A stretch of DNA of 61,206 bases. It comes from Candidatus Woesearchaeota archaeon (GTDB taxonomy: Archaea > Nanobdellota > Nanobdellia > Woesearchaeales > 21-14-0-10-32-9). The DNA lies in contig JAIPET010000006.1 in the NCBI GenBank assembly GCA_021736975.1, positions 1-61,206 on the forward strand, written 5' to 3'. The position numbers were made by a program, and so were the translations under genes. Positions 24,303-47,437 of the stretch are shown piece after piece. Within the stretch, counting starts at the first letter, position 1; every line of letters starts with the position of its first letter. The notes below the pieces were generated by a model that had not been told where the DNA came from, made no database searches, and was given only the letters and a program-made list of their open reading frames with translations.

Positions 24303-24419
24303 AGCCCCGTAGTGTAGCGGCCAATCATCCTGGCCTTTGGCAACGCAAGAGAATCTTGTTGGTTCTCAACGAGACGTTGAAGAAAGCCAGGGACCTCGGT
24401 TCAAATCCGGGCGGGGCTA
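24303..24419 (+). tRNA. tRNA-Gln (anticodon TTG) with a 44-base intron
   Basis: Acceptor AGCCCCG pairs with CGGGGCT and the discriminator is A (24419). The anticodon stem is CTGGC/GCCAG with loop C-T-TTG-G-A; the anticodon is 24337-24339. The intron (24341-24384) follows position 37, the usual archaeal site, and its ends form a CAACG/CGTTG helix compatible with a bulge-helix-bulge splice motif. The T arm is CTCGG TTCAAAT CCGGG. A TATA-like CTTTAAAAAG lies at about 24252-24261. The last 12 bases are repeated four times downstream as integration scars. Confidence 0.93.
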
Positions 24420-26771: not shown

Positions 26772-26821
26772 GTATTATTTTTGTCCAGATGATATTTTTG
26801 GAAGTTTTATGTGCCGAATTT

Positions 26822-26866
26822 TTCCTCTCTTTTGACATTATTGTCCATGAGCTCGGGCGGGGCTAT
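26822..26866. repeat. Attachment-site copy 3 (right end of unit 2, left boundary of unit 3)
   Basis: CGGGCGGGGCTA at 26854-26865 is identical to the tRNA-Gln 3' end. The 45-base block matches copy 2 at 36 positions. The stop codon of the small gene of unit 3 (26866-26868) begins exactly one base after the core. Confidence 0.8.
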
Positions 26867-27027
26867 CAATGTAAAAGCGATTTGGAAGGATTCGTTTTTT
26901 CCAAATCTTTTTTTACCTTTATTCTTGCTTCTAAAACTTCGATTACTTCTTTGATGGTTTGGCAGTTGTATGTCATGAGAAGTCGTTCTTTTTGTTGGGT
27001 TAGAAATTCGTCATCTAGATATTTCAA
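26866..27027 (-). CDS. Small recombinase-linked protein (53 aa), candidate directionality factor
   Basis: Encodes 53 residues, TTG start (27025-27027), beginning LKYLDDEFLTQQKERLL. The site GGTGAT lies 5 bases before the start. It is 59 bases downstream of the recombinase gene and its stop codon abuts the attachment core. It is clearly similar to the 50-residue protein at 47196-47348 (shared pattern K-[YW]-x-D-[DE]-E-[FY]-L, LL, T-x-x-EVIE). A role in recombination direction is inference from position. Confidence 0.65.
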   Translation of the reverse strand: MKYLDDEFLTQQKERLLMTYNCQTIKEVIEVLEARIKVKKDLEKTNPSKSLLH

Positions 27028-27086
27028 TTTTTATCACCAGAGGTTTTTAGGCTCTGATGATATTTGGTAGAATCTCGGAATGTGTA

Positions 27087-28334
27087 TTACGTTCTTTTTT
27101 CTATGATTACTGTGTATGGTTCCATTTCTTTGTATCTGCTTTCTAATTGTAGTGCTTTCATTACGTCCATCATTTGCTCCATTTTCCGGTCTTGGGCTTG
27201 TATCTGTTCTTGAAGTAATGTTATCTCGTTTCCTTTGTTGGCTATGTCTCTTTCTAGTTGGGTTTTGCTTACGTCTACATAGAGGTCTTCTTCTTCAATT
27301 GTGTCTCTCATTCCTAGAAGTTCTGTGTAGTAGTGTATCATTTCTGATTTTTTCCAGCCAAATCTGTATTTTAGAGCGGATTCTGATTTGTATCTTGGAA
27401 GCCAGTAGCACGCAGAACTGTGCCTGAAATCATACATAGTCAGACCATTTTTCGAGCAATTGTATAGCTTGCCATCTTTTCCTCTTTTTTGATAGAATTC
27501 CCCAAGTCCAAGTATTTTATTTCCTAATCTCTTTAAGTATTCATTTACTTGGTGATGATGCGTTGTGAATATGAATTGATCTGCTTTGAGTTTTTGAATT
27601 TTAATGAATTCTTTTAACATTGCTGAGCACAGGAGTAGTTTGATTCTTCTTCCAAATGTCTTGCTAGTTTCCGGTCTGATTGTTAGTGTGTAGTGTTTTT
27701 TTTCTTCGCTCCATTCTAAATCAGATACTTTGACGTTCATCATTTCTGTCGGAGCTCTTATTCCTGTGTCAAATAAGAACATCATGAGAACTCTGTATTC
27801 ATATTTTGCTTTGTTGCACATCTGATTAAGTTGTTCTATTGTGAAATAGTTGAAGTGTGGTTTCTCATCTCTTCCATCAATATCTTGAGTTATGTCTCTA
27901 ACTGTTATTCCTTCTTTTCTTTGTACTCTTTGGTACCAGTGCCACATTGATTTGAATGCTTTTATGAGCGTACCTACTCCTGTAAAGACTTCTCCTGTTT
28001 GTTTTCTTGTTTGTATCTGTCCATCTCTTAATTTTTTTATGAGCTGTAAGAATTCTCTTTCTTTTTGCTCTACTTCAGGAATGTAATCTATTCCAAGTTC
28101 GTCTTGAATTATTATTGCCCAAGAATGGATTTTTGATTTTAAGTTTCTTAATCGAATGTAAGATCTCGATCCTCTCTTTACGACAGGAGATACATTTGCC
28201 CCTATTTCCATATCATCAAGATACTGGAGCAATAACTCTCTATTCTTTGAAGAAACACCGTCAAACGGAGCTCCTTTCTCATATCTCCATTTCTTGTATG
28301 TTTCCTCATTTCGGTGAGGATCGAATTTAGCCAT
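27087..28334 (-). CDS. Tyrosine recombinase (integrase) of unit 3
   Basis: A 415-residue integrase. The catalytic domain has the first Arg in LFDTGIRAPTEMMNV (about residue 193), the H-x-x-R-like box YDFRHSSACYW (about 300), and the nucleophile Tyr in MIHYYTEL (about 333); the N-terminal part is a SAM-like/core-binding region. A coiled-coil tail follows. It would recombine the element with the tRNA-Gln 3' end. An in-frame ATG at 28391 exists, but the TATA box (28389-28399) overlaps that codon, so transcription would begin after it; the ATG at 28334 is preferred. Confidence 0.88.
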   Translation of the reverse strand: MAKFDPHRNEETYKKWRYEKGAPFDGVSSKNRELLLQYLDDMEIGANVSPVVKRGSRSYIRLRNLKSKIHSWAIIIQDELGIDYIPEVEQKEREFLQLIKKLRDGQIQTRKQTGEVFTGVGTLIKAFKSMWHWYQRVQRKEGITVRDITQDIDGRDEKPHFNYFTIEQLNQMCNKAKYEYRVLMMFLFDTGIRAPTEMMNVKVSDLEWSEEKKHYTLTIRPETSKTFGRRIKLLLCSAMLKEFIKIQKLKADQFIFTTHHHQVNEYLKRLGNKILGLGEFYQKRGKDGKLYNCSKNGLTMYDFRHSSACYWLPRYKSESALKYRFGWKKSEMIHYYTELLGMRDTIEEEDLYVDVSKTQLERDIANKGNEITLLQEQIQAQDRKMEQMMDVMKALQLESRYKEMEPYTVIIEKRT

Positions 28335-28388
28335 TTTTCGTTTAAAACCTCTCAAACACTCGAATTCTAACACTTCAGACGCTCCCTT

Positions 28389-28433
28389 CATTTATAAAGA
28401 GAGTCGTAGACGATTGGATATTTTCGAGTGGAC
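28389..28433 (-). promoter_or_regulatory. Recombinase promoter with conserved upstream element
   Basis: The minus-strand TATA box CTTTATAAATG (28389-28399) is preceded, 13 bases upstream, by a 21-base element at 28413-28433 containing ACTCGAAAATATCCAAT. The same element, with one mismatch and the same 13-base spacing to a TATA box, occurs at 47405-47425 in unit 4. It is longer than a normal BRE, so a specific regulator is likely. Confidence 0.75.
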
Positions 28434-28463
28434 AAGTCACCGACACCGTGTGATTAGTGACTT
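28434..28463. repeat. Inverted repeat upstream of the recombinase promoter
   Basis: AAGTCAC (28434-28440) and GTGACTT (28457-28463) form a perfect 7-base inverted repeat directly next to the conserved promoter element. It may be an operator or a terminator for the gene to the right; the strand is not determined. Confidence 0.45.
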
Positions 28464-28519
28464 ACAGAGAACTAAAGTTTGTGATAGAAGAATACATGAT
28501 GTCGGATTTTGTATTACCT

Positions 28520-29209
28520 TTAGTTTTCAGGTGTTTGAATTTCTGATTGTTCTACAATTTTAAGTAGATAATCTATATAGCCGATAATTTGCATTGCGGT
28601 TTGTCTAGTTAATGTTCCTTCATTATGTGCTTTTTGATTTCTATGGAATTTCATCATGCCCATCATGATGTGTTTGAATCCTTCTTTTTCTTCTTCATGA
28701 TCAGCAGCTCTTATTGTTAGTATTGGTCTGGCTGTGCTAAAGACTGTTGACATGAGATTGAACCCTGTAATGTTCAATCCAGATTTTTCTTTAACACGAA
28801 TCTCTAGATGTCTTTGTGCATTTGAAACAGCATTCCAATAATCCTCATTATCAAATGCAAGTTTGCAACTATTTATTAGACGAGTATCAGTTACCGCATC
28901 ATTCAATTCTCCTTTTGGTGTAGAAAAATCTAAGTCTTTTTGCTTTAATTCTTCTAAGTATTTTTTTCCTGCTGTTGTGAAGACATTAAACATGTCTGAA
29001 TGTTTTTGATTTGGGTCTTGCATGATGTAGCCATCACGCTTGAGTTCCGAATAACCTTCCCATGCCAAAAGTTGTTCTTCTTCGGTGAGATTTCCTTGAT
29101 TTAATCCCATAATTATTCCGTCAGCTCCGTGATTCCTATGAGATTTTGGTTGCAAACATCGGTCCAATTCTATAAAGAACATATTTTTTAATTTGGTTTT
29201 TGATAGCAT
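28520..29209 (-). CDS. TIGR02391 (Ymh)-like HEPN-family protein
   Basis: A 229-residue protein. The C-terminal half matches the TIGR02391/Ymh family: 'YWNAVSNAQRHLEIRVKEKSG' and the active motif FHRNQKAHNEG, an R-x4-H HEPN signature. The N-terminal half looks like a winged helix ending 'VFTTAGKKYLEEL'. Such proteins occur in mobile elements and phage defence as likely abortive-infection RNases. A minus-strand TATA box at about 29228-29241 gives a leaderless start. Confidence 0.72.
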   Translation of the reverse strand: MLSKTKLKNMFFIELDRCLQPKSHRNHGADGIIMGLNQGNLTEEEQLLAWEGYSELKRDGYIMQDPNQKHSDMFNVFTTAGKKYLEELKQKDLDFSTPKGELNDAVTDTRLINSCKLAFDNEDYWNAVSNAQRHLEIRVKEKSGLNITGFNLMSTVFSTARPILTIRAADHEEEKEGFKHIMMGMMKFHRNQKAHNEGTLTRQTAMQIIGYIDYLLKIVEQSEIQTPEN

Positions 29210-29332
29210 ATTATTTAGAATATTGTTTTATATATAAAAAATAGTTGATTTTGTGTTACCATTTTTGTACCCTTTTTTATCCACTGTTTTGTAGCCTAAG
29301 TGTATTTCTCTTTTCTCAACCTTATGCTTTGT

Positions 29333-29467
29333 ATGGTTAAGACAAAGATGTTGATTCTCAGGATTACTGAGGAGCAGGACAAGAAATTAGATCGTCTTGC
29401 TAGTGAGATTTTTGTCAATAAATCAGAATATGTGCGGTTGAAATTGTTTAAGAAGAGTGGTGCGTAA
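29333..29467 (+). CDS. Ribbon-helix-helix DNA-binding protein (44 aa)
   Basis: Encodes MVKTKMLILRITEEQDKKLD and onward, 44 residues: an N-terminal beta ribbon (KMLILRITEEQ) followed by two helices (DKKLDRLASEI, NKSEYVRLKLFKK), the CopG/Arc-type ribbon-helix-helix. It likely acts as a dimeric repressor. ATG at 29324 is also in frame. Its stop overlaps the next gene's start (TAATG). Confidence 0.75.
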   Translation: MVKTKMLILRITEEQDKKLDRLASEIFVNKSEYVRLKLFKKSGA

Positions 29468-29655
29468 TGGATGAAGATTTTTCGATGCTTAGAGGAGAGA
29501 GAAGGAGTTTCTTTTGTCATAATAGGTTGTGGAAGGAACTTAAGAATCAGACGGGAGATTGTGTGTCTGTCTCGACGTATATTAAGCAGGCTATTTTGGA
29601 GAAGATGATTCGTGATGAGCCTGAGAAGAGGGAGTATTTTGAGGATTTGCGGTGA
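29467..29655 (+). CDS. Second ribbon-helix-helix-like small protein (62 aa)
   Basis: A 62-residue protein coupled by TAATG to the preceding RHH gene. 'RSFFCHNRLWKELKNQTGD' followed by VSVSTYIKQAILEKMIRDEP has the strand-helix-turn-helix layout of RHH proteins. The two tandem RHH proteins probably control element genes. Codon use is richer in G than in chromosomal neighbours. Confidence 0.6.
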   Translation: MDEDFSMLRGERRSFFCHNRLWKELKNQTGDCVSVSTYIKQAILEKMIRDEPEKREYFEDLR

Positions 29656-29732
29656 TTCCGTAATATTTCCGGTCATTTATATGTATATATTTATAAATGA
29701 TGGCGACTTTACTACTGTTAAGGTAACACAAA

Positions 29733-29846
29733 ATGACTAACGCCCAAATTTGGATAAGAACCAGAAATTTCTTTGATCTAGTTAGTCACATGACTCCCGA
29801 TAAACGAGGGAAACTCGTTAACAGATACTGCTTTGTCGACCAGTGA
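29733..29846 (+). CDS. Small hypothetical protein (37 aa)
   Basis: Encodes 37 residues starting MTNAQIWIRTRNFFDLV, basic. AAGGT lies 8 bases before the ATG and a TATA box (TATATTTATAAATG) at about 29684-29697 precedes it. Codon use is GC-richer than the chromosome. No family recognised; supported only by signals and composition. Confidence 0.45.
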   Translation: MTNAQIWIRTRNFFDLVSHMTPDKRGKLVNRYCFVDQ

Positions 29847-29947
29847 TTATGCACCAATTGGGGCGGACTGACTGACAAGGTTGGCTTGATTTTTTTGTTT
29901 TTGACAACGATACAACGCTAAAAAAACTGTACGGGGGTGGTTACCAC

Positions 29948-30208
29948 GTGATACAAACGAAACCTATTCGGACATCGGATAAAATAATCCGGGTCGAAGG
30001 GAAGGTCTTCTACAACGACCGTAGAAGACGAATAGATGTAAAGAAGCCTATTAGAGATCTCTTCGATGCGGGTGCCGATGTCAGATACGTTATGGAGCTA
30101 TGCTTATCTGAACTTAAGTTAGCTCAGCGTATAAAAGAATTAGGCGAAAAGAACGTAGTGCCAGTGCTGATGTACTTTGTGGAGGAGAGTGAAAATGCAA
30201 CCGAGTAA
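29948..30208 (+). CDS. Hypothetical basic protein upstream of TFB
   Basis: An 86-residue protein with GTG start, preceded by GGGGGTGG. It begins IQTKPIRTSDKIIRVEGKVF after the initiator; the first half is basic with a probable beta hairpin, the second half helical. The last 14 bases overlap the TFB gene, so they are co-translated and may act together in transcription. The GTGATACAAA start is the same as that of the small zinc protein at 37353-37514, suggesting element-specific initiation signals. No family recognised. Confidence 0.65.
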   Translation: MIQTKPIRTSDKIIRVEGKVFYNDRRRRIDVKKPIRDLFDAGADVRYVMELCLSELKLAQRIKELGEKNVVPVLMYFVEESENATE

Positions 30209-30983
30209 CTGTCCTGAATGCGGAAGCATAAATTTGCACATCAATCTGCAAGCTAGTGAGATAATTTGTAATGATTGCGGACTAGTTATTGAAGAAAATG
30301 GTATTGAGCAGAATCCATACGTTAGCGAGAGCACAAAGAAAAATGCAAGACTGCCACAATTAGCAACAGCAGGAAGCAAAGAAATAGATGGAAAAATATG
30401 GAAGAAATCATGGCTTCTTTCAACCAAAGAGAAGAACATGCGTTATGGTATGAGTCGCATCACAGCATTAGCTGGAAAACTGCACTTGCCAGAATTTGTA
30501 ACGCAAGAAGCCAAAGTCATATTCAAACAAGCAATGGATAAAGACTTAGCAATAGGCAGAGATATAATCAGCTTCAGCTATTCAAGTGTATATTCAGCAT
30601 GTATTATTCATAATCTTCCTAAGACTTTACTAGAAGTCATAGTGCACAGTTCAGTTAGAAAGACAAGATTGATGAGAGCATACAAAGTCCTAAGAAAAGA
30701 ACTATCTTTGATGATTCCAGTAGTTGATCCTATAGACTTGATTCCACGATTCGCATCAAAATTAGAATTAAGCCAATCAACCGTTACAAAAGCAAATGAG
30801 TTAGCAATGAAAATAAGCGAAGAAGGGTTACTTTCTGGAAAACGACCGGAGACAATTGTAGCTACAGCATTATACTTAGCTTCAAGAATGAATGAAGAAC
30901 CAAGAACGCAAAGAGATGTAGCAAACGCAGTAGGCGTGATAGAAGTTACTATAAGAAATTCTGCGAAGAAAGTTGTATTTTGA
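30195..30983 (+). CDS. tfb: Transcription initiation factor B (TFB), element-encoded
   Basis: A 262-residue TFIIB homologue: N-terminal zinc ribbon with Cys at residues 6, 9, 25 and 28 (CPEC...CNDC), a linker with IDGKIWKKSW, then two cyclin-like repeats ending in an HTH (QRDVANAVGVIEVTIRNSAK). TFB bridges TBP-bound promoters to RNA polymerase. It is shorter than chromosomal TFBs (about 300). The start at 30195 is supported by GGAGGAG 8 bases upstream. As an element-borne factor it may direct transcription from the element's own promoters. Confidence 0.9.
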   Translation: MQPSNCPECGSINLHINLQASEIICNDCGLVIEENGIEQNPYVSESTKKNARLPQLATAGSKEIDGKIWKKSWLLSTKEKNMRYGMSRITALAGKLHLPEFVTQEAKVIFKQAMDKDLAIGRDIISFSYSSVYSACIIHNLPKTLLEVIVHSSVRKTRLMRAYKVLRKELSLMIPVVDPIDLIPRFASKLELSQSTVTKANELAMKISEEGLLSGKRPETIVATALYLASRMNEEPRTQRDVANAVGVIEVTIRNSAKKVVF

Positions 30984-30987
30984 AAAG

Positions 30988-31029
30988 ACTTACCCTAAAT
31001 TAATTAATTCAGTTTAGGGTAAGTTTTTA
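30988..31029 (+). terminator. Hairpin terminator after TFB
   Basis: ACTTACCCTAAA (30988-30999) and TTTAGGGTAAGT (31013-31024) form a perfect 12-base stem followed by a run of T. A further direct copy of CTTACCCTAAAT lies at 31103-31114, so the arm sequence may also be a regulator's site. Confidence 0.6.
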
Positions 31030-31034
31030 ATTTC

Positions 31035-31116
31035 ATATATAAATCAGAGCTTACCGTTAATATTGGCTGTGATGCAAGAATCATGCAGTATTAGCCGAAA
31101 CGCTTACCCTAAATCT
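31035..31116 (+). ncRNA. Candidate small RNA between TFB and VirB4 genes
   Basis: A TATA box (ATATATAAAT, 31035-31044) with no frame downstream; transcription would start near 31065 at a hairpin made by GGCT/AGCC (31065-31068 with 31093-31096) and TGCA/TGCA (31073-31076 with 31084-31087). The predicted RNA carries CTTACCCTAAAT, complementary to the right arm of the TFB terminator. Weak evidence. Confidence 0.3.
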
Positions 31117-31128
31117 GCCCGTAGTTAA

Positions 31129-34092
31129 TCACTTGAATTGTTGTTGTATAAAGTCTTGTATTTGTGTTCTTACTATGATTGGGATCTGCTGTGCTATTCT
31201 TTCATATTTTCTTCTATCTTGACTGTCTATTAAAAATATTATTGTGTTGTCTCCGTATTCTTTTTTGACTCTTTCAAATTTTTCTATAAGTCTTGTTCTA
31301 TGCTTTGAGAAGTCGATGCCTGTCTCGACTTCGATTGCTGTCTCATTTCCTTTCTTGTTTTTGAAAATGATGTCTGCTTTTGTTGTAATTTTTACTTCTA
31401 CTTTTTTTGTGTATTTCTTTATTTCTTCAGCGATGTTGTGTACGAAGAATGTGTGTTCTATTCCTTCAACATCATTCTTTTTTACCCAGATTGTTTCTTG
31501 TCTTGTTTTTCCGATTGGCATGAGGTTTTGTACTTCGTATCCGTTGTTTAGTAATTCGTTATGTTGATATTCATCTAGGGTGCTTGCATAATAGTATGGC
31601 TTTTCGAAATTTAGTTTTGATTCTTTTTCTTCCTTTTCTTTTTTGTTGTTGGTTTGTTTTAGAATTTCATCAGCGTTGGTTGTGATGATGCTGTGCTCCT
31701 TTGGGCTTGCTACTACTTCTAGTTCTTGGTGTTCGTTGTCTAGTATTAGTATTCCTTTTCCTTGTGTGGCTGTCAGTAAGTATTCTTTTTCCATCTGGCT
31801 AAGGTTGAATGTTTTTACTACGCTGTCAATTACTGCAGGCTTTTGTCTAAGTAATAGAGAGTATGAGCTGTTAGCAAGTACTGCGTGTCCTGCTCTGCTG
31901 TTTACTAAGTCTGCCACGTCTTGTGTGATTAATAATAGTCCTAGGTTGAATTTTCTGCATGTTTTTACAATTTCAAAGATGTAGCTTGCTTCTTCTGCAT
32001 GTCCCAGTAGGCTCCAAGCTTCATCTATGATGAGGAGTTTTCTTTGTTTGGTCTGCTTCATCTTCATGTAGATATAGTCAAGTATGAGGAACATGACGAG
32101 TGGTTTGACTTGTTTTGGCATGTCGCCTATGTTGAAGCATACGAAGTTGTTATCGAAGTTTATGTTGGTTGGTTTGTTGAGGAAACCAAAGACTCCTTTG
32201 GTGTACATGTAAAGCCTGTTGAGTATTGCTCTGTATGTTATTTTCTCCATGCTACTCGCTTTTTTGTCCATAGCTTCGAGTTCTTTGTAGAGGTCTCCGA
32301 GGATTGGTGCCTGTTTATCCTTGTAATTATTGGCTGTTATTTTCTTTTTCTTGTATGTTTTTGTTATGGCTTTGTCAAGGATGCTTTTTTGTATTTCTGA
32401 TAAGTCTCCAAACATTATCTTGAACATGTCCATTAATGCGAGCCTTTTTTCTATATAGTCGTGTCCCATGAGATCCAGTGGATTGATAATTGTTTCAGAT
32501 TCCCTGCTTATTGTTACAAGTTCTCCTTTTACTTGATCAGTTAGCCCTAAATATTCTGCTTGTGGGTCTATAACCATTACTTGTGTGTTGTTTAATAGTT
32601 GCCTTGAGATGAGAAGTTTTGTGAAGTAGCTTTTTCCTGATCCGCTTGTTGCAAGGACTACGCCGTTAGCGTTGCTTAGGGCGTATATGTCTTTGATGTA
32701 CGGGACTTTATTCTTATTCAAGCCCAACATTACCCCTTCAGGCTCGACCGTCAGGAAAGGGCTTGTAAACGGGAAAAATGCAGATAATGCTTGTGTCGTA
32801 ATGTTTCTCTTTATTTGTAATTCATCCTTTGCTACTGGGACTAGTGATTTGTAGCCTTGTACTTGTCTAAACATTGGCACACTTGGTATTATCATCAGGC
32901 TGTTTAGTTCTGCCTCTACTTTCTTTGTAAGGAGATTGAGTTCTTCTTTTGATTTGGCTTTGCAATTTATATATAATGAAACGTTGAATAATTTTTCATT
33001 TCCTTTTTGTAGATTTTCAAGAACTTTTAATGTATCTTTGTATTTTATTTCTAGGCTTGGATTTATTGATTGTTTCTTTTGTTCTGCGTATAAGTCTCCT
33101 CTTTGTTTCTGGAGTTCCTTGTTTAACGAGATCATCATAAGCTCAATTGGGAAAGGTTCCATATGTATGCTGATATCAAAGTCGTCATTACTGCTGATTA
33201 TTTTATCAAGAAATCCAGACTCTACCATTCTTGGATATCCAACAGCACTTACTATTCTGCAATGTTTGTCGTTGATAATTACTGAGTCAACAGCATCTTT
33301 TATTGTATTTGGTGCAATGATGTATTGCATCCCGCTACATTTTATTTTTCCTTTAGTTTCCTTCTTTTTTCCATCGTTGAAAAAAAGATTGAGTGTTTTA
33401 ATTATGTTCTTGTCGTTTAATCTTGTTACTTTTAGACCTATCCCTTCTAATCTTTCTTTACATACATCGCATTGTATTTGCAAATCTGTCTTTTTTGGGA
33501 TGACGAGATAGAAGTTTCTATTTCTCATTTCATTTTGTTCTATGTTGTTTTTCATGAATTTAGAAAAGTCTTTGAATTGCTCGTTGTTGTCTGTTCTTTT
33601 CTTTAAGCTTTTCAAATATTCATCAATGTTCAAACTATTTGTTGTAACAACAAATTGTACAGGGAAATCTAATCCATTCAGAAATTTTTGGAAGCCATAT
33701 ATTATTGCTTCTTTCTCGTCCTTTGTCTTTATGCTAAAATTAAGGGGAGTTACTTGTAGTATTGCAACGTCTGTGTGGCTATGAATTATGTTGTCTTTTA
33801 CTTGTTTTATGTTTACAAGAGAGTTCATTGCTCTATCATTAAGCCGTGTACTTCTGAATCGAAAGAAATATGCTATGTGTTTTAGCCAACTTCCAAAATC
33901 AAAAAATATGAATAATATTCCAATCATTCCAGGAATGCTTGCAAGGATGAATTTTGCTACTATTGATATGTTTAGCTTGAAAATAAAAATAAGGATAAAT
34001 ATGAAAAGACAAGCCCAACCTATCTGTGAGAATGTTAATCCGAAGATAATCTTTTCTTTGTGTTGGAGCTGTTGGGGAATTTCATAAGCCAT
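31129..34092 (-). CDS. virB4: VirB4-family conjugation ATPase with PrgI-like membrane N-terminus and nuclease-like C-terminus
   Basis: A 987-residue protein. Residues about 15-85 carry two membrane helices like PrgI (MAYEIPQQLQHKEKIIFGLT). The ATPase core has Walker A SGSGKSYFTK (about 482) and Walker B KLLIIDEAWSLLG (about 685) with the VirB4/TraC order. The last 150 residues contain ADIIFKNKKGNETAIEVETG, a D...E-x-E pattern resembling PD-(D/E)XK or replication-relaxation folds. VirB4 powers type IV secretion and pilus assembly at the membrane. The PrgI fusion is known in archaea; the added nuclease-like tail is unusual and could supply the missing DNA-processing activity. Confidence 0.88.
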   Translation of the reverse strand: MAYEIPQQLQHKEKIIFGLTFSQIGWACLFIFILIFIFKLNISIVAKFILASIPGMIGILFIFFDFGSWLKHIAYFFRFRSTRLNDRAMNSLVNIKQVKDNIIHSHTDVAILQVTPLNFSIKTKDEKEAIIYGFQKFLNGLDFPVQFVVTTNSLNIDEYLKSLKKRTDNNEQFKDFSKFMKNNIEQNEMRNRNFYLVIPKKTDLQIQCDVCKERLEGIGLKVTRLNDKNIIKTLNLFFNDGKKKETKGKIKCSGMQYIIAPNTIKDAVDSVIINDKHCRIVSAVGYPRMVESGFLDKIISSNDDFDISIHMEPFPIELMMISLNKELQKQRGDLYAEQKKQSINPSLEIKYKDTLKVLENLQKGNEKLFNVSLYINCKAKSKEELNLLTKKVEAELNSLMIIPSVPMFRQVQGYKSLVPVAKDELQIKRNITTQALSAFFPFTSPFLTVEPEGVMLGLNKNKVPYIKDIYALSNANGVVLATSGSGKSYFTKLLISRQLLNNTQVMVIDPQAEYLGLTDQVKGELVTISRESETIINPLDLMGHDYIEKRLALMDMFKIMFGDLSEIQKSILDKAITKTYKKKKITANNYKDKQAPILGDLYKELEAMDKKASSMEKITYRAILNRLYMYTKGVFGFLNKPTNINFDNNFVCFNIGDMPKQVKPLVMFLILDYIYMKMKQTKQRKLLIIDEAWSLLGHAEEASYIFEIVKTCRKFNLGLLLITQDVADLVNSRAGHAVLANSSYSLLLRQKPAVIDSVVKTFNLSQMEKEYLLTATQGKGILILDNEHQELEVVASPKEHSIITTNADEILKQTNNKKEKEEKESKLNFEKPYYYASTLDEYQHNELLNNGYEVQNLMPIGKTRQETIWVKKNDVEGIEHTFFVHNIAEEIKKYTKKVEVKITTKADIIFKNKKGNETAIEVETGIDFSKHRTRLIEKFERVKKEYGDNTIIFLIDSQDRRKYERIAQQIPIIVRTQIQDFIQQQFK

Positions 34093-34188
34093 GTGGTGAT
34101 ATTCAGGCTCTCATCGTTTAAATACGGATGTCGGACAAACAAATCTAAAAAAGAATATTATTTAAAGACTTAAAAGTAATGTGTTAAT

Positions 34189-35064
34189 ATGGATTTATTT
34201 GATAAGACATTCAAGGATCACGATATTTTTACCCTGTATTATAATCCTCTGGATCAAGATGGTGTTGCACAGTCTCAAATTCTAGAAATTATTAAACCTT
34301 ATCCTAACTTAATAAAAACGTTTGGAGAAGAGTTTACAAATAAATTGACGAGTATAGGTAATAATGTTTTACATTTACAACGATTGGGCTCAATTGAGTC
34401 TTCTTTAGATTTATTCAAAGATGCAGAAGGATTTAATAAAATAATTGATAATGTTCGTAAATTAGTACCTTATATTGTGAAAACCAATCTTGATAGTACT
34501 CAGTTCGATATTTATTTTAAACAACTTTTAAGATACTTTTCTGAGCTTTCTTTTCCCCAGTATGTTCATTCTGTATCTGGTTGCGGAATCTCATTCCAAC
34601 CTCGAGATATTGGGAACGGACTTCGTTCATGTGATAATTTATTTAATTATCTTGGTTCACAAATTGGAGTGGAAATAACAACTATATCTACAGATAATAA
34701 GAATAGTCTACCTTTAAAAATTCAGAATATATTTGAAAACAAAGCACAAGAACAAATATCCAATCATGATGGAATATTGTTAATAGATATTTCTTTATCT
34801 TGTAAACAAATTTTTGAAATAGAAACTAGAAAGTTTAAAGTCGAGTTTACTAATATTGATTATATTGCAGAACTTTGTAGAAAAGAATTAGACAAAGAAG
34901 AGAATAGCCATTTGCTTGGTGTTGTAGTTCTTGCTAATGTCTTAGTTACAAAAGATTCAAAAGCAGGAATTTCTTGGTCTATGCGAGTTTTAGAAAATGT
35001 TAATAACTCTAAAAGTGATATGTTGCCTAAATTATTATCTAAGCAAGCATCCCGATGTACTTAA
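34189..35064 (+). CDS. Hypothetical protein
   Basis: A 291-residue soluble protein not recognised. It lies divergent from virB4 and overlaps the tail of the VirB6-like gene by 26 bases, so it interrupts the secretion cluster. Its base composition is more AT-rich than the flanking secretion genes, suggesting later insertion as cargo. Possible catalytic residues are not clear; 'NHDGILLIDISLSCKQ' resembles a buried beta strand with acidic ends. A TATA box at 34157-34168 gives a leaderless start. Confidence 0.65.
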   Translation: MDLFDKTFKDHDIFTLYYNPLDQDGVAQSQILEIIKPYPNLIKTFGEEFTNKLTSIGNNVLHLQRLGSIESSLDLFKDAEGFNKIIDNVRKLVPYIVKTNLDSTQFDIYFKQLLRYFSELSFPQYVHSVSGCGISFQPRDIGNGLRSCDNLFNYLGSQIGVEITTISTDNKNSLPLKIQNIFENKAQEQISNHDGILLIDISLSCKQIFEIETRKFKVEFTNIDYIAELCRKELDKEENSHLLGVVVLANVLVTKDSKAGISWSMRVLENVNNSKSDMLPKLLSKQASRCT

Positions 35065-37036
35065 TTACTTGTGCTAGTTCTGCTCCTCCGTTTCCTCCTC
35101 CGAATACTGATTTGAATATTTGTTTTATTATGATTATTATGAATATGATGTTTATTATTGAGAAGCAAGCTATCATGACCATAATTTTTACGTTTTCAAA
35201 TATTGGTAGTTCTACTAGCATTGAGCATCCGAGTATTATTATGCTGTAGATGAATGTTATGAATATGAATGAGCCTAGCATGTGCAGTATTAGTTTTCCA
35301 TAGCTTTTTAGTGGTGGTACGAAGTAGCAGAATATTCCTACTGGCATGAAGATTACTCCGAAGGATACTATGAGATATCTGATTAGTAGAAAGAGTAATG
35401 TGATAAGGAGTGTTATTGCGTAGAGTGTTACAAATAGGAATTCTAGTCCTAGGTTTGCGAGGTTGTCTGCTGTTAGTAGGAAGAATTGTTCGTTTACCAT
35501 TGAGAGGACTGCTGAGGTCATTACTGCTCCTATTTCTAATATGAGTTTGTAGAGATAGAATGATGCTTGTATGAGTACTATCATAATGACTGTGTTTCTT
35601 AGCCATTCTTTTGCTATTTCTCTTTTGATGATGTTGTGTCCTGATATGAGGAATTGTAGTCCTGAGTAGAGGAATAGTAGTCCGTAGAAGAGGCTTATGC
35701 AGTAGACCATTATTGCCCATATTCCTTGGAATATTTCTATTGATGGTGCATTTTCCATTAGTGATCTGATGCTCGAGAGTAGTGGTTGTAAGGGAGCGTT
35801 GAGCATATCTATGAAGAAGCCGTATATTTTTTCGGGGATGCATGTTGCTAGGTTTGTTAGTCCGCATTCTTCTGCACTTACACTGGGAATAAAGAGTAAT
35901 AAGAGCAGTACGGGGATTATTGCTTTTCCCCATGTCTTTTTAATTCCAATGTAAAATAACCACAGCACGAATACAAATATAGCAATCACAAAGAGAAAGT
36001 TCCAGCTACTTGAGAATGATTGTGTCTGGAATTCTGTGGCATTTATTTCTTGTAGATTGTATGTGCATTCTTTTTCTTCTGTTTCAAAGAAGTTATTGTA
36101 TTTTACTGTGCATGTGTTTTCATTCTTTACTGTGATTGTGTTTTGGTTGAGGAATAAATTTCTTGATTCTTTTGCTGTGCTATTTATCGCTCTAAGTGTT
36201 AGAAAGTAATATGGTTTCTTTGTGAATACTGCGTCGTATGTGTAGAATAGTTCTTTGTAGAATGAATTGTCAAAAAGTATTTCTATGTTGTTTTGTGTGT
36301 TGTTTTTTTCTCCGATGATGTTTTGGTTGTAGATGTGTTTGACTTCAAAGTCTGGTTCTATTGGTTCCTGGTAGTTTATGACGTTGAATGTGTCTTCTAC
36401 TGTGAGTGTGTTTGTGTTGTATTCTGTGTGGTCGTAGTCGCAGTCCCATCCGTGATCGTAGCCCCATTCATAATATCTTTCTCGTACAGTTATGCTTGCT
36501 GTGTAGACTCCTCTAAAAGTAACTGGTTTGCTTATGACGAATGTTGCTGTTTTTTGATTTGATAGATATTGCTCGTTTGCATAAATCTTCAGATTGTCTG
36601 AACTTGAATGGTAATAGTATTTTATCTGGCAAGTTCTTCCTCTCTTCTTTTTGCTATTGTAATATGTGTCTGGAATTGTGTATTCAAAATGATATTCTGA
36701 CCTTAGCGTAAACGTTGAGGGGACGAGCAACTGTTCTTCGTAAAGTATTGACGGTGATGCTGTGAGAAATGTGAACCACATATTTTTGAGATTTCCAGAA
36801 GATTTGGGAATTGTTCCTTCAGGAGCATTGTTAACTTGAATGTTATTATTATATTGATTTATGAATTGATGATTGGGACTTGATGTGTTTGTATAGATAA
36901 GATTTGCAATGAGGCTTTCATTATACTCATTTAATGCAAGACATTCTGTTTGGTCTTGAAAGTAAGAACAATCAAAAGCTAAAGCTACGCTAGGTAACAA
37001 TAATAAAAATAAAAAAAATATTTTTAGTTGTTTCAT
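35039..37036 (-). CDS. VirB6/TrbL-like polytopic membrane protein with exported N-terminal domain
   Basis: A 665-residue protein: signal peptide (MKQLKIFFLFLLLLPSVALA), a large exported region of about 310 residues rich in beta and aromatic residues, then a C-terminal part with about eight hydrophobic segments, including a second signal-like stretch ending VSAEEC and a block with 'LFLYSGLQFLISGH' typical of VirB6/TrbL-type channel proteins. It is translationally coupled (ATGA) to the pilin gene. The ATG at 37036 is preferred because it begins the signal peptide. It would form the membrane channel of the secretion system. Confidence 0.78.
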   Translation of the reverse strand: MKQLKIFFLFLLLLPSVALAFDCSYFQDQTECLALNEYNESLIANLIYTNTSSPNHQFINQYNNNIQVNNAPEGTIPKSSGNLKNMWFTFLTASPSILYEEQLLVPSTFTLRSEYHFEYTIPDTYYNSKKKRGRTCQIKYYYHSSSDNLKIYANEQYLSNQKTATFVISKPVTFRGVYTASITVRERYYEWGYDHGWDCDYDHTEYNTNTLTVEDTFNVINYQEPIEPDFEVKHIYNQNIIGEKNNTQNNIEILFDNSFYKELFYTYDAVFTKKPYYFLTLRAINSTAKESRNLFLNQNTITVKNENTCTVKYNNFFETEEKECTYNLQEINATEFQTQSFSSSWNFLFVIAIFVFVLWLFYIGIKKTWGKAIIPVLLLLLFIPSVSAEECGLTNLATCIPEKIYGFFIDMLNAPLQPLLSSIRSLMENAPSIEIFQGIWAIMVYCISLFYGLLFLYSGLQFLISGHNIIKREIAKEWLRNTVIMIVLIQASFYLYKLILEIGAVMTSAVLSMVNEQFFLLTADNLANLGLEFLFVTLYAITLLITLLFLLIRYLIVSFGVIFMPVGIFCYFVPPLKSYGKLILHMLGSFIFITFIYSIIILGCSMLVELPIFENVKIMVMIACFSIINIIFIIIIIKQIFKSVFGGGNGGAELAQVIKYIGMLA

Positions 37037-37356
37037 CCTGTCAGGAACCCCACAACTAATGGTGCAACCCAAATTATGACAAGTCCAATAACGATGTACA
37101 TCGCCATTGATTTGGCTTGCTCCCTCTTTGCCTGATCATTAGCACTCGTAATGAAAAGCACACCGGCAAATATCAAGAACAGCACAGCAAGAACTGTAGC
37201 CGCATATTTGACGAAGTTATAAATCTTCATTACTGGCTCCAAGATCTGATCAAAGGTCTCTTGGTCTTCTTCGCTAATCTCTCCTCCAAAATCTGCCGCC
37301 GCAACAATCATAGGGGTCAGCAACAGGAGCAATGCTAGCACTGCAAACAATTTCAT
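37033..37356 (-). CDS. TrbC/VirB2-like pilin protein
   Basis: A 107-residue protein: signal peptide (about 1-20, ending VAAA), a short acidic stretch (ISEEDQETFDQILEP) and two membrane helices separated by a short basic loop (DQAKREQAKSM), the layout of TrbC/VirB2-type pilins. It is coupled by ATGA to both the upstream zinc protein and the downstream VirB6-like gene. Probably the main component of the conjugation pilus. Confidence 0.82.
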   Translation of the reverse strand: MKLFAVLALLLLLTPMIVAAADFGGEISEEDQETFDQILEPVMKIYNFVKYAATVLAVLFLIFAGVLFITSANDQAKREQAKSMAMYIVIGLVIIWVAPLVVGFLTG

Positions 37357-37514
37357 TTTGGTACCACCTCCGGTCTTTTTGAGTGGGTTTTAGCGTACGC
37401 CTCGAGGCTTCCGTACTTCCACTCGATAAAAGCAATACAAGAAGAGCACAGCGTTCCTTCGCCCATTTCAAGGGGTTTTCCGCATAAATCACAAGTAGCT
37501 TCGATTTGTATCAC
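37353..37514 (-). CDS. Small zinc-ribbon-like protein heading the pilin operon (53 aa)
   Basis: Encodes 53 residues with GTG start (37512-37514): CDLCGKPLEMGEGTLCSSC forms a C-x2-C...C-x2-C zinc site, followed by a helix. The stop overlaps the pilin ATG (ATGA). A longer frame on the same strand (37274-37492) covers this place but has no Cys pattern or overlap logic and is judged a shadow. Function unknown; it may be a regulator of the operon. Confidence 0.7.
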   Translation of the reverse strand: MIQIEATCDLCGKPLEMGEGTLCSSCIAFIEWKYGSLEAYAKTHSKRPEVVPK

Positions 37515-37545
37515 CTTAACAGACCAAAGGCTGGCATAGAAAATA

Positions 37546-37595
37546 GCACTATCTCGGATAGTGTAATACAGATTTCAGATATTTTTATATATCTG
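37546..37595. promoter_or_regulatory. Shared palindromic divergent promoter (secretion operon and restriction gene)
   Basis: One AT-rich palindrome (AGATATTTTTATATATCT, 37578-37595) contains TATA boxes for both strands: leftward to the zinc protein-pilin-VirB6 operon and rightward to the Sau3AI-type gene. A perfect hairpin/operator CACTATCTCGGATAGTG lies at 37546-37562 in the leftward leader. The two programmes may be co-regulated. Confidence 0.6.
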
Positions 37596-37613
37596 GTTGT
37601 ATCTAAGGATTTT

Positions 37614-38984
37614 ATGAGTTCAAAATCACAAGAATATGATGATACTTCTGTAGATTCTATTTTTAAGTATGCAAAGAAAGTTATTAATCATCGTTTACGG
37701 GATTTTGTGCCCGAGAAATTTCTTGGAACTAAAAAAGGAAACAAGGGCAATTTTGGTGATTATCTTGAAACTTATTATTTTGGCTTAAAGAAAAATAATG
37801 AAAGTAGACCGGATTTTCCTAATGCGGGAGAAAAAGGTCTCGAGTTAAAAAGTACTCCCATAAAAATGTTGAAAAGAGGAGGGTTCTCTGCTAAAGAAAG
37901 ACTAGTTCTCAATATGATTGATTATGATTCCATTCAAGACGAAACTTGGGACGAATCTCACTTCTTGTCAAAAAATGAACTAATCTTGTTAATAACTTAC
38001 TTGTATGAACAAGGAATTCCATTTCTTGATTTCTTAATTAAGTATGTATCTTTAATGAAACTTGAAGGTACAGATAGAGAAATTGTTCGTCAAGATTGGG
38101 AACATATTGTTGATAAAATTAGACAAGGTAAAGCCCATGAGCTTTCGGAGGGAGAAACGAATTATCTTGGTGCTTGTAGAAAAGGTTGGAAAGAAAAACC
38201 AGTAACCTACAAAAATGCAATTGAACCTGCAAAAAAGAGAGCTTTTAGTTTTAAGCAAAAATATATGAATTCGATTCTTCGAAGGTTAGAGGATTCAGAA
38301 CCTATTGTGAAAACTATCTCTCAGTTAAGAGATAATACTTTTGATAATATTGTACTTAAGAGATTTAATCCTTTCAAAAATTTAGAAGTATCTCAAATAG
38401 AAAAGAGATTAGGAATTGGCTTGAATAAGAAAGCAAAAAACTATTATGAGATGCTAGCAAGAAGGATGATGGGTGTTTCTGCTAAGAAGATTGATGAGTT
38501 CGAAAAAGCAGATATCACTATGAAGATAATAAGGTTGAAACCGTCTGGAATGCCTAAGGAGAGCATGTCTTTCAAGGCTTTTGATTTTAAAGAAGTTGCT
38601 GAGCAGAGTTGGGATGAGAGTGAATTTTCAGATCAGATAGAGAAGAAGTTTTTCTTTGTTGTGTTTCAGATAAATGAGGATGAATCTGTGACATTCAAAA
38701 AATCGTTCTTCTGGACTATGCCTTTGCCAGACAGAAAAGAGGCAGAGAAAGTGTGGAAGAAGACGCAAAAGATAATACATGAAGGCGTCAAGATAACAAG
38801 AAAAGACGGAAAAAATTTCAATAATCTTCCGGGTTCAAAAGATAGTCCTGTAGCACATGTCAGACCTCATGGTCAAGATAGTAGAGATGTACTTAAGCTT
38901 CCTGATGGAAGAAAGATGACAAAGCAATGTTTCTGGTTCAATCAAGGTTATATAAAAGAAGTTGTGGCTAACCATAAAGATTGA
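37614..38984 (+). CDS. Sau3AI-family type II restriction endonuclease
   Basis: A 456-residue protein like Sau3AI/MutH: N-terminal nuclease NFGDYLETYYFGL, then RPDFPNAGEKGLELKSTP with D67, E77 and K79 as the D...E-x-K centre, and a C-terminal DNA-binding domain ending in the family pattern HVRPHGQDSRD...CFWFNQGYI. Sau3AI enzymes cut before GATC; the specificity here is presumed. The start ATG at 37614 is leaderless relative to the TATA at about 37582-37590. It is tail-to-tail with the C5 methyltransferase gene, leaving one base between them. Confidence 0.88.
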   Translation: MSSKSQEYDDTSVDSIFKYAKKVINHRLRDFVPEKFLGTKKGNKGNFGDYLETYYFGLKKNNESRPDFPNAGEKGLELKSTPIKMLKRGGFSAKERLVLNMIDYDSIQDETWDESHFLSKNELILLITYLYEQGIPFLDFLIKYVSLMKLEGTDREIVRQDWEHIVDKIRQGKAHELSEGETNYLGACRKGWKEKPVTYKNAIEPAKKRAFSFKQKYMNSILRRLEDSEPIVKTISQLRDNTFDNIVLKRFNPFKNLEVSQIEKRLGIGLNKKAKNYYEMLARRMMGVSAKKIDEFEKADITMKIIRLKPSGMPKESMSFKAFDFKEVAEQSWDESEFSDQIEKKFFFVVFQINEDESVTFKKSFFWTMPLPDRKEAEKVWKKTQKIIHEGVKITRKDGKNFNNLPGSKDSPVAHVRPHGQDSRDVLKLPDGRKMTKQCFWFNQGYIKEVVANHKD

Positions 38985-38985
38985 T

Positions 38986-40230
38986 TCATTCTGTTGAATC
39001 AAGTTTCTTGATTAATGCCTTTCCTATTTTTTCTATTACTCCTATGACTAAGGCATTGCCCATGAAGAATGCTCTCTTAATGTTGCTGGCACCTTCAGTA
39101 TGGTTATCCGGGAACATGTTCAGTCTTTCTAGCTCAAGAGGAGTCAGTCTTCTCAGTCGTCCACTTTTGCATTTTACAACATGCTTGAATCTCGATGCAC
39201 TGCTTCCGCCTTCTCCTGTTACTATCGTTCTAGAGGGCTTGTCCAATGTATCAGGAAACACCATAGAACCTTCCGCATATTTATACGTAAAGTTTTCTTT
39301 CTTATTGGTTCTCTCTTCGCTTTTTGCTCCTTTCAAATATTCCCATTTTTTATAATCTCCATTTATGAAGAATTCTTCTGGGACATCTTTTTCAGGGATT
39401 AATATATCTCCAAGAGTAGTTCTCTTTCCATGATAATTGGCTGTAATCTTTGCTGAATATACTTTCCTGTCAATCATGACTCCTAAATTGCTGAATGGAC
39501 TGTTTTTCTTTCCTTTGTTGAACTTGTCTGTAATCTCTACTAGATTTCCTTGTATCTCAAACTTATTCTCTTCAAGAATTTTGTGTTTGTCAATATTGAA
39601 CTCTTGGGCGAAAACTCCTTTGTCAATTACCCATTCTTTAGAATCTGTCTTTTTTAGTTCTTTGTAGATTGTTGTCCTTTTGTTATACGCTAAGATGAAG
39701 ACTCTTCTTCTTCTTTGGGGGAATCCATAATCTGCTGCATTTATCGCTCTCCATTCTACAGCATATCCTAAATCACTAAGAGATGCAAGGATTATTGCGA
39801 AGTCTCTACCTCTTTGGCTTGCTGGACTTTTCAATAGTCTATCGACGTTTTCTAAGAAAACAAAATCAGGATATTTTTTTTTACTACTTATGAGCCTATG
39901 AATCTCCCACCAAAGAACACCTTTTTTTCCAACAATTCCTTGTGATTGACTAAGTGTCTTTGCTACAGAGTAATCTTGACATGGGAAACCACCTACTATC
40001 ATATCAAAATCAGGAATTTCGCTTATATCGACCTTTGCTATATCAACATTAGAGTGGTTTTTTTCGCCGAATCTTTTCACATAGATATTGGATGCATCTT
40101 GAGTCTTGGTTCCGGGTTCCCATTGATTGCTCCATACAGTCTCAAATCGTTTGGATGCCCTATCTAAGCCAATCCTAAAGCCTCCTACTCCTGCAAAAAG
40201 GTCAATTACCCTTATCTTTTTTAAGCCCAT
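38986..40230 (-). CDS. DNA (cytosine-5-)-methyltransferase
   Basis: A 414-residue C5 methyltransferase: motif I DLFAGVGGFR (10-19), motif IV GFPCQ with the catalytic Cys (81-85), motif VI ENVDR (about 129), motif VIII QRRRRVF, a target-recognition region, and motifs IX-X near the C-terminus (GNALVIGVI). It pairs convergently with the Sau3AI-type endonuclease, so it probably protects the same sequence (M.Sau3AI modifies the C of GATC). Confidence 0.93.
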   Translation of the reverse strand: MGLKKIRVIDLFAGVGGFRIGLDRASKRFETVWSNQWEPGTKTQDASNIYVKRFGEKNHSNVDIAKVDISEIPDFDMIVGGFPCQDYSVAKTLSQSQGIVGKKGVLWWEIHRLISSKKKYPDFVFLENVDRLLKSPASQRGRDFAIILASLSDLGYAVEWRAINAADYGFPQRRRRVFILAYNKRTTIYKELKKTDSKEWVIDKGVFAQEFNIDKHKILEENKFEIQGNLVEITDKFNKGKKNSPFSNLGVMIDRKVYSAKITANYHGKRTTLGDILIPEKDVPEEFFINGDYKKWEYLKGAKSEERTNKKENFTYKYAEGSMVFPDTLDKPSRTIVTGEGGSSASRFKHVVKCKSGRLRRLTPLELERLNMFPDNHTEGASNIKRAFFMGNALVIGVIEKIGKALIKKLDSTE

Positions 40231-40368
40231 ACTCTGTCTAAGAACGCTACTTATTTATAAATGTTGTGATCGAATGACCAGTAGTAATTCCGGATAAAGG
40301 TTCATATTATTTGGTTCTGCTAGGATTATAGCCTAATATTTATAAACTAAATCTCATATGAAAAAAAT

Positions 40369-41814
40369 ATGCTTACAAAATCAAAATATATGGCTGGCTT
40401 GAAATGTAACCGTTATCTTTGGTTTATGGATAGAAAACAGCTTCCTGAGATTTCTCTTTCTGATAAGCATAAGTTTGCTCAAGGTCATGAGTTTGAGAAA
40501 TATGTTTATAAATTGTATTCTGATGCTGTGAATCTTGCGGATATGGATTTTCAGAAGAATTTAGATAGGACTAAATCTGCTATTGAACAAAGAAAAGTTA
40601 TCTTTGAAGCTGGCTTTAAGGTTGATGATTATTTTGTTCGTGTTGATGTTCTTGAACCTAATGGTGATGGTTGGGATATTTATGAAATTAAATCTAGCAC
40701 TGAAGTGAAGAAGGAGCATATTCCTGATTTGGCTTTTCAGAAGTGGATTTGTGAAAAAGCTGGATTGAAGATAAAGCGATGTTTTGTCTATTTCTTGAAC
40801 AAAGAATTCGTTAAAGATGGAGAAATTAATCCTGATGAATTAATCAACAAAGAAGAAGTTACTGAAAAAGTTGAATTAGAGACAGATGTTGAGAAAAATG
40901 CATTAGCATCCTTAAGAATAATTGGAGCTGATGCTACCCCGCCAATAACTATTTCGCAGAGTTGTAATAATCCTCATGAATGTCCCTTGAAAAAAGCTTG
41001 CTGGGGAACATTGCCTGAAAATAACGTATTACACTTGACCAATTGGAGAACATACTGGAAGTTATTTGCTGAAGGCATAGAAGACATAAAAGACATCCCT
41101 CGTGGAACTAAACTTTCAGATAAAGATGAAGTTATCAAAGAATCAGTTGAAAAGAACAAAGTTTTCGTTTCTAAAGAACATATTAAACACTTCTTGAATT
41201 CACTGCATTATCCCTTATATCATTTTGATTTTGAAACGATAGATACCGCAGTGCCTATATTTGATAAATCAAGACCTTATCAGAAAATAGCGTTTCAGTA
41301 TTCATTACATATTGAGCAAGAAGATGGAAAAACTGAGCATAGAGAATTTTTGCACAATAGATCTGATGATCCAAGACCTAAACTTCTTGAACAAATGAAA
41401 GAAAATCTAAAGGGGACAGGAGATATTATTGTATTTAACAAGTCCTTTGAAATAAGTGTTATGAGAAAACTAGCAGAAGATTTTCCAGAACACGCTGATT
41501 GGCTACAATTAGCAATTGATAGAATTGTCGACCTAGCAGACCCATTCAGAGCATTCTACTACTACAATCCTTCACAAAAAGGCTCATATTCAATCAAGAA
41601 AGTGCTTCCAGCAATTACAGGAAAAAGCTATGCAGAACTAGAGATAAATAAAGGTGGAGATGCAAGCATGCTTTATTTTTACAGCCACATTTATCCCGAA
41701 ATCAAAGAAAAGGATAAAATCAGAGCAAACCTATTTAAATATTGTAACTTAGATACAGAAGGAATGGTTTGGATTTTGCAGAAGTTAAAAGATGTTATTG
41801 AGGTTAGTAAATAA
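40369..41814 (+). CDS. DUF2779 protein with Cas4-like nuclease N-terminus
   Basis: A 481-residue protein. The N-terminal half resembles Cas4/PD-(D/E)XK nucleases (FAQGHEFEKYVYKLYSD, VRVDVLEPNGDGWDIYEIKS with a D...E-x-K pattern and Cys in SCNNPHECPLKKAC, possible Fe-S or zinc ligands). The C-terminal half is DUF2779, with RNase H-like acidic residues (YHFDFETIDTAVP, CNLDTEGMVW). It probably degrades or processes nucleic acid. It overlaps the next gene by one base (TAATG) and so belongs to the same operon as the ABC-3C-like genes. A TATA box (TATTTATAAACT) lies at about 40337-40348. Confidence 0.8.
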   Translation: MLTKSKYMAGLKCNRYLWFMDRKQLPEISLSDKHKFAQGHEFEKYVYKLYSDAVNLADMDFQKNLDRTKSAIEQRKVIFEAGFKVDDYFVRVDVLEPNGDGWDIYEIKSSTEVKKEHIPDLAFQKWICEKAGLKIKRCFVYFLNKEFVKDGEINPDELINKEEVTEKVELETDVEKNALASLRIIGADATPPITISQSCNNPHECPLKKACWGTLPENNVLHLTNWRTYWKLFAEGIEDIKDIPRGTKLSDKDEVIKESVEKNKVFVSKEHIKHFLNSLHYPLYHFDFETIDTAVPIFDKSRPYQKIAFQYSLHIEQEDGKTEHREFLHNRSDDPRPKLLEQMKENLKGTGDIIVFNKSFEISVMRKLAEDFPEHADWLQLAIDRIVDLADPFRAFYYYNPSQKGSYSIKKVLPAITGKSYAELEINKGGDASMLYFYSHIYPEIKEKDKIRANLFKYCNLDTEGMVWILQKLKDVIEVSK

Positions 41815-42956: not shown

Positions 42957-43524
42957 TAAAATTGAACAAGGAATTCAAGAATTTATTAAAGATCTGATAA
43001 AAGAAAATAAAGTTCCGACCATAGATAGTACTGAAGATAGAAGTTTCTCTCCAGATACAGAAGTTGAATTTAATTCGTTAAGAATATTGGCTCTACTTGA
43101 ATATAGTGGGGTAAATGGCAAGATTGATTCAAAATTAAAATTTGCCTTCTTTGATTTTTTAATTAGATTCCCTATTTGTTTAAAATATATATTAGATAAA
43201 AATCAAGAATCAACCAATTTTGAACAATCTGAATTGACTTCAATTGATAAAAAAATGGTTAGGCATATTAGCAGTGCGTGGGATCCTGATTATTATAATT
43301 ACATTGCATTTTTGGATTCTAGAAATTTAGTAAACACTGATTTTGAAAACAAGTTTTCTGTAGAGATAACTTCAGAAGGTAAAGAAATAATTAAAAACTT
43401 TGAATCAGAAATATTGATTAAATGGAAAGAACGATGCAAACTTTTAAAGAAAATCTACGGGAGCAAAAGCGACCAAATACTTCAAAAAGCGATAAATGAA
43501 CATTTTGCGTTTACGGTGATATGA
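42949..43524 (+). CDS. Middle component-like protein of an ABC-3C-like system
   Basis: A 191-residue helical protein with a winged-helix-like layout (FNSLRILALLEYSGVNGKI near residues 40-58 and SVEITSEGKEIIKNF later). By position between nuclease and ATPase it fits the 'middle component' of ABC-3C systems, which bridges effector and ATPase. GTG start at 42949 overlaps the upstream stop by 8 bases. The assignment is mainly contextual. Confidence 0.6.
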   Translation: MNNKIEQGIQEFIKDLIKENKVPTIDSTEDRSFSPDTEVEFNSLRILALLEYSGVNGKIDSKLKFAFFDFLIRFPICLKYILDKNQESTNFEQSELTSIDKKMVRHISSAWDPDYYNYIAFLDSRNLVNTDFENKFSVEITSEGKEIIKNFESEILIKWKERCKLLKKIYGSKSDQILQKAINEHFAFTVI

Positions 43525-45408: not shown

Positions 45409-45410
45409 TT

Positions 45411-46118: not shown

Positions 46119-46217
46119 GTAAGGGCAAAGTTTGCCTTCATGAATCTACGAAACTCGGCTTATGTAATACGAACTCGGCGTAAATTTTTTATAGTTGCTC
46201 AGCTTGTAAGTACAAAT

Positions 46218-46487: not shown

Positions 46488-46500
46488 ATGCTGCAATGTT

Positions 46501-46552
46501 GGAGTCCACTAGAATCGCACGAATGGGTGCCCGTCGGGCGGGGCTATTATTT
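46501..46552. repeat. Attachment-site copy 4 (right end of unit 3)
   Basis: CGGGCGGGGCTA at 46535-46546 is identical to the tRNA-Gln 3' end. The preceding GGAGTCCACTAG and the following TTATTT also occur around copy 5 (55136-55186), with one single-base gap. So units 3 and 4 share a right-end type, different from that of units 1 and 2. Confidence 0.82.
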
Positions 46553-47348: not shown

Positions 47349-47381
47349 GATTTATCACCACGCACGTCACAGAGCTCTTTG

Positions 47382-47425: not shown

Positions 47426-47437
47426 AATTTGTTTAAA

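Follow-up and report, generated by a model that had tools for sequence, protein, structure and literature searches.

A 40-60-residue protein family linked to one tyrosine recombinase clade in tRNA-Gln-integrated elements of Woesearchaeales: a candidate recombination accessory protein

The bacterial recombination directionality factors (lambda Xis, P2/HP1 Cox, RdfS) are mostly basic, winged-helix proteins that bend DNA. According to a 2021 review (PMC8371274), no characterised archaeal integrase needs such a factor for either integration or excision in vitro, which leaves open how archaeal elements choose between the two reactions. The only known archaeal integrase helpers are Orf2 and Orf3 of SNJ2, a haloarchaeal pleolipovirus (PMC8371274). 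In the review's account of this work (Wang et al. 2018, via PMC8371274), Orf2 has 111 residues and a coiled coil, Orf3 has 140 residues and a MarR-like DNA-binding domain, and the two enhance integration and inversion.

The locus described here resembles SNJ2, as far as that account goes, in that an archaeal tyrosine recombinase is co-transcribed with small accessory genes right behind it and the accessories are dispensable in relatives. It differs from Orf2 and Orf3 in size, the protein having only 40-60 residues; the model has two helices, no Pfam domain was found, and no similarity to any known family was detected. Like the genes for Xis, Cox, and RdfS, some of which also regulate the integrase promoter, the small gene lies in an integrase module beside attP; unlike those factors, its product has no wing and a net charge of about zero. 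A third likeness is to integrase-less or mobilizable satellites and tandem accretion at tRNA genes, since integrase-less units with compatible att cores lie behind an integrase-bearing element; unlike satellites, the integrase-less units here keep the integrase's partner gene, at some loci under the integrase's own promoter.

The window, meaning the whole stretch of DNA that was analysed, spans one entire contig (61 kb); the genome to which it belongs measures 1.31 Mb, is 98% complete, and has Woesearchaeota/Nanoarchaeota MAGs as its closest named relatives. The core sequence GGGCGGGGCTA ends a tRNA-Gln gene and recurs behind it at 25748 (with one mismatch), 26855, 46536, and 55170, such that four units are stacked there (Table 1). 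The attachment sites have inverted arms at near-constant spacing: GAGTCCWC precedes the core by about 34 nt and GGACTC follows it by about 23 nt. This arrangement (GAGTCC...core...GGACTC) is common to recombinase-bearing and recombinase-less units. At the tRNA the outer arm is missing, as attB would lead one to expect, and unit 4 has a degenerate left arm. Units 1 and 2 (24420-26865; 1.3 and 1.1 kb) each contain an MNT-type nucleotidyltransferase and HEPN-like pair and each close with a core; their common right arm, CTTTTGACATYATTGTC, differs from that of the other units, and they look like cassette-like toxin-antitoxin units at tRNA-Gln. A variant second core, AGCTCTGCCRGGGCTAT, was observed 80-90 nt inside unit 4 (46612-46640) and inside the unit at locus L047 (about 4040), so that the two cores enclose a mini-unit. 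At L046 (4710-10309) and L054 (10-7385), four to five cores fall within 6-7 kb, and small units are thus densely arrayed behind the same kind of attachment site. At L048 (5936-6053), ARAGORN called an intron-bearing tRNA-Leu; its flanks match the tRNA-Gln(UUG) of L057 and of the window, and it is probably a tRNA-Gln with an unusual intron, serving as attachment site.

Table 1. Coordinates of features in the window
Feature	Position	Strand	Basis
Intron-bearing tRNA-Gln(UUG), 3' end = original attachment site	24307..24419	+	anticodon read by eye
Attachment core, tRNA-proximal end of unit 3	26855..26865	+	
Unit 3: element integrated at tRNA-Gln; carries VirB4/VirB6/VirB2-type, restriction-modification, and Lamassu genes	26866..46546	.	
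Unit 3 small partner gene (TTG start, 53 aa)	26866..27027	-	leave-out profile E 3e-18
GGTGATAAA with Shine-Dalgarno GGTGAT, in 3' arm of leader hairpin	27030..27038	-	
Leader hairpin TATCATCAGAG...CTCTGGTGATA sequestering the Shine-Dalgarno (predicted)	27032..27062	-	-13.1 kcal/mol, z -5.1
Motif M, TAATACACATTCCGA, overlapping recombinase stop codon	27075..27089	-	
Tyrosine recombinase, 415 aa from M20; annotated ORF to 28391	27087..28334	-	PF00589; homologue alignment
Recombinase promoter/operator, CTCGAAAATATCCA + TATA box CTTTATAAA	28387..28435	-	
Second copy of motif M, upstream of promoter	28502..28516	-	exact match
Attachment core at the unit 3/unit 4 junction; preceded at about 34 nt by right arm GGAGTCC	46536..46546	+	
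Unit 4 homologue of the small gene (ATG start, 50 aa), no recombinase	47196..47348	-	leave-out profile E 5.5e-14
Same promoter/operator, directly before unit 4 small gene	47379..47427	-	
Attachment core, far end of unit 4; right arm GGAGTCCTC	55170..55180	+	

The order within unit 3 given in the earlier note, made from the DNA letters (promoter, recombinase, 53-residue gene, core), was borne out by the coordinates: the small gene follows the recombinase after 59 nt, and its stop codon (26868-26866) abuts the core. The recombinase matched Phage_integrase (PF00589; E 8.3e-8, residues 185-358 of the 434-aa ORF) and a PHROG integrase (E 3.4e-16). Translation probably starts at M20 (28334), since homologues align from residue 20 and the annotated start would leave a mere 15 nt or so between it and the TATA box. 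In unit 4, the small gene is about 650 nt from the left core, unlike in unit 3. When compared directly, the two small proteins showed only a weak likeness (38%, E 0.004); a profile of 16 homologues from other genomes, built with both window copies left out, ranked the unit 3 and unit 4 proteins first and second of 1103 window frames, with the third-best frame at E 0.63. The unit 3 and unit 4 promoters match over 49 bp (82%). The claim that unit 4 has the same promoter and a 50-residue homologue with no recombinase between them therefore stands on both profile and promoter.

Searching the first five proteins against 353 genomes of the order returned 19 matches below E 2e-6 and then a clear gap to 0.004; one match (G335:C226) was not confirmed as a gene when read, leaving a family of 18 members, all in the one archaeal order Woesearchaeales. 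Sampling 371 genomes from the phylum and 359 from the class yielded no member outside the order. The proteins share the consensus (E)KxRLLxxYxCxTIxEVIxxLE and had no match in Pfam, PHROGs, or the PDB, the Pfam and PDB profile hits all being at chance level.

Among 19 recombinases found in the order, the small gene adjoins 6/6 at 58-100% identity and 0/13 at 48% or less; all six have it immediately downstream, no more than about 40 nt from the core. Five of the six bearers are full and one is cut (78% identity over 112 residues). With the cut one left out of the tree, the bearers form one clade (100/99 support), and hence represent one evolutionary gain rather than six independent ones; one sister recombinase, in genome G239, has a copy of the small gene about 900 nt away. 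Homologues beside recombinases in other genomes, the absence of which the earlier note had taken as grounds for abandoning its reading, were thus looked for and are present. The other 12 of the 18 copies have no adjoining recombinase (unit 4, L046b, L047, L048, L049, L050, L052, L054, L055, L057, L058, and the unlinked L059), and 9 of these 12 lie within 650 nt of the same core. Genome G335 repeats the layout of the window: a tRNA-Gln, a core, the small gene and recombinase, a 22-kb element, a core, and a recombinase-less small gene. No relatives of the recombinase were found in viral contigs or phage records; the small proteins are too short or diverse for a scan of viral contigs. At L060 (G125:C83, 350-3560), two recombinase/small-gene modules converge on one common core, which shows that a unit can carry the module at one end or the other. 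At L055 (2846-4501), a gene that by eye resembles a reverse transcriptase takes the recombinase's place directly before motif M and the small gene, as does a HAD-like hydrolase at L049, where a C-terminal scrap of recombinase remains near the small gene.

Our preferred reading, at a probability of about 0.5, is that the protein is a dedicated accessory protein of this one Woesearchaeales recombinase clade, most likely a directionality or excision factor or a helper at the attachment site. In favour are the conserved gene pair beside the core, purifying selection, the common operator and promoter, and the recombinase-less copies at compatible cores. Several points weigh against this reading: characterised archaeal integrases need no directionality factor in vitro, the protein has neither the wing nor the basic charge usual in known factors, the left att arm of unit 4 is degenerate, and the recombinases at 48% identity or less manage without the small protein. 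Action in trans on the arrayed elements is plausible from the sequences, because the recombinase operon is conserved, copies are retained without a recombinase, and operator and promoter are common. It fits poorly with the recombinase-less copies in several genomes that showed no recombinase of the family (e.g. G004, G190, G191), unless the helper was lost or left unassembled. Since units 1 and 2 show that toxin-antitoxin cargo is common here, the protein might instead be an unrelated small regulator or antitoxin-type protein riding these elements by chance. The 6/6 linkage to a single recombinase clade, the lack of a consistent second partner gene at the recombinase-less loci, and the absence of any Pfam, PHROG, or PDB match make this highly improbable.

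Patterns of substitution bear on whether the gene does anything at all. In every pair compared, dN was lower than dS. The ratio was 0.16 for L049/L057, both without a recombinase, and at its highest 0.62 (unit 4/L047); in the remaining pairs dS was mostly saturated, with dN 0.09-0.56. The gene is therefore very probably translated and under selection even where no recombinase adjoins it. A simple passenger would be a gene caught between recombinase and core and kept because deletions end short of the att arm, its copies outside operons being relics. In most loci the gene does lie within about 40 nt of the core, chance alone can preserve a short ORF, and the left end of unit 4 looks decayed; yet third codon positions are free while LL, Y-C, T, and V are fixed, recombinase-less copies included, the start codon is intact and the Shine-Dalgarno often so, and the promoter-driven copies no longer adjoin the core but have kept the protein. 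We consider a passenger quite improbable. The small-protein tree, too short to resolve, suggests that recombinase-less copies arose more than once.

The winged-helix or ribbon-helix-helix (RHH) excisionase fold proposed in the earlier note did not hold up. AlphaFold2, given the 18-row alignment, predicted helices at 3-19 and 25-45 (pLDDT 85.7) with no strand and no wing, that is, a bare two-helix hairpin. Almost every member carries a net charge close to zero. A winged helix was rejected for want of a wing and of a Foldseek match (no fold match to the model was found in the PDB or BFVD), and RHH for want of an N-terminal strand and of a Pfam match; profile comparison with one RHH-like family of the element itself gave a probability of 0.3%. 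Given the near-zero charge and only two helices, the protein is more likely to act as an oligomer or to bind the recombinase than to bind DNA alone in the manner of a classical winged-helix, DNA-bending Xis.

A different role is suggested by the promoter. Each of the five full recombinase operons has the order CTCGAAAATATCCA-(N)-ACGACTCTG-TTTATAAA with small differences, and in unit 4 and L047 the operator CTCGAAAATATCCA immediately precedes the small gene; inspection by eye indicates the same for L046b and L058. The protein could therefore be a transcriptional autoregulator that represses or activates the common operator, controlling the recombinase in unit 3 and itself in unit 4, such that a resident copy would silence incoming or neighbouring recombinases, which would be the immunity reading. 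The operator half GTCCACTC also resembles the att arm GAGTCCWCT. We regard this as possible though unlikely: the protein has no recognisable DNA-binding fold and near-neutral charge, the recombinase could equally be the operator-binding protein, and L048, L049, L054, L055, and L057 have lost the operator while the small gene is still conserved there. The 23-bp heart of the promoter occurs exactly twice in the genome, at these two sites (control hits, 0); because both copies adjoin the small-gene family, we rejected the element as a host chromosomal dif site.

A second repeated sequence, motif M (TAATACAAACTCCGA, sometimes a palindrome), is found on both flanks of the recombinase in the window, in both L060 modules, and in L056, and one copy is left before the recombinase-less genes of L048, L049, L054, and L055. 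It also occurs near right att arms. Besides the two copies in Table 1, it was seen in the window at 55082-55116 and 46155-46179, and it was noted in L060, L056, L049, L054, L055, and L057. An integron-like cassette boundary was considered for motif M and rejected, since it flanks the recombinase yet also sits in the right arms of units; it is a putative binding site or a recombination relic.

GGTGATAAA is indeed present before both starts in the window, as first noted (27038-27030 and 47359-47351), with a third, unrelated copy elsewhere. Its GGTGAT complements the 3' end of archaeal 16S rRNA and is thus a Shine-Dalgarno, so its sharing is not by itself evidence of homology; few other window genes (5/29) carry one. 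In unit 3, L046a, L060a, L048, and L057 the Shine-Dalgarno falls in a predicted hairpin, whose z scores relative to mononucleotide shuffles range from -3.1 to -5.1. No such hairpin was found at the promoter-driven copies. Pairing persists through sequence change, with 88% of cells paired compared to 32-56% when slid by one to three columns. Four pairs had two-sided changes among only six sequences, which is modest support from covariation.

Within the accessory-protein reading, these hairpins allow a more specific proposal. In unit 3, the recombinase would be made from the common promoter and the partner, on the same mRNA, would be poorly translated because its Shine-Dalgarno is held in the hairpin, so that integration would be favoured. 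In copies like that of unit 4, with the promoter directly before the partner and no hairpin, nothing would restrain supply of the partner, which might then work in trans with the recombinase of the element next door, probably as an oligomer or by binding that recombinase. A bolder version is a directionality switch set at translation, in which the partner is the directionality factor, the hairpin keeps the system in integration mode, and the hairpin-free copies make the resident recombinase excise its recombinase-less neighbours in trans. We consider this bolder version doubtful.

Among the genes of unit 3, which carries the recombinase pair, are those for a VirB4/TraG ATPase, a VirB2/TrbC-type pilin, TFB, RHH proteins, an N6/N4 methylase, and a VirB6-like membrane protein (assigned by position, with no Pfam hit). 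This backbone (VirB4, VirB6, VirB2, TFB, RHH, and ORFs) recurs in G335 and partly in L060 and L056. No relaxase was identified in unit 3, and the label is accordingly limited to conjugative-type. A complete Lamassu set, LmuA (Cap4 nuclease)-LmuC-LmuB (SMC), lies inside the element (41814-45408), adjoined by a MutH-type restriction enzyme and C5 methylase pair (37506-40230); together they represent a defence load on a DPANN integrative element.

With no directionality factor described for an archaeal integrase and SNJ2 Orf2/Orf3 as the sole helpers (PMC8371274), the small protein is worth a direct assay. The partner is a sequence family new to Pfam and PHROGs, on a tRNA-Gln-integrating, conjugative-type element with Lamassu. 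It offers a compact candidate in a DPANN lineage whose element biology is almost unknown, along with natural partner-without-recombinase controls, and could turn out to be the first factor from archaea to govern when elements of this kind exit the chromosome.
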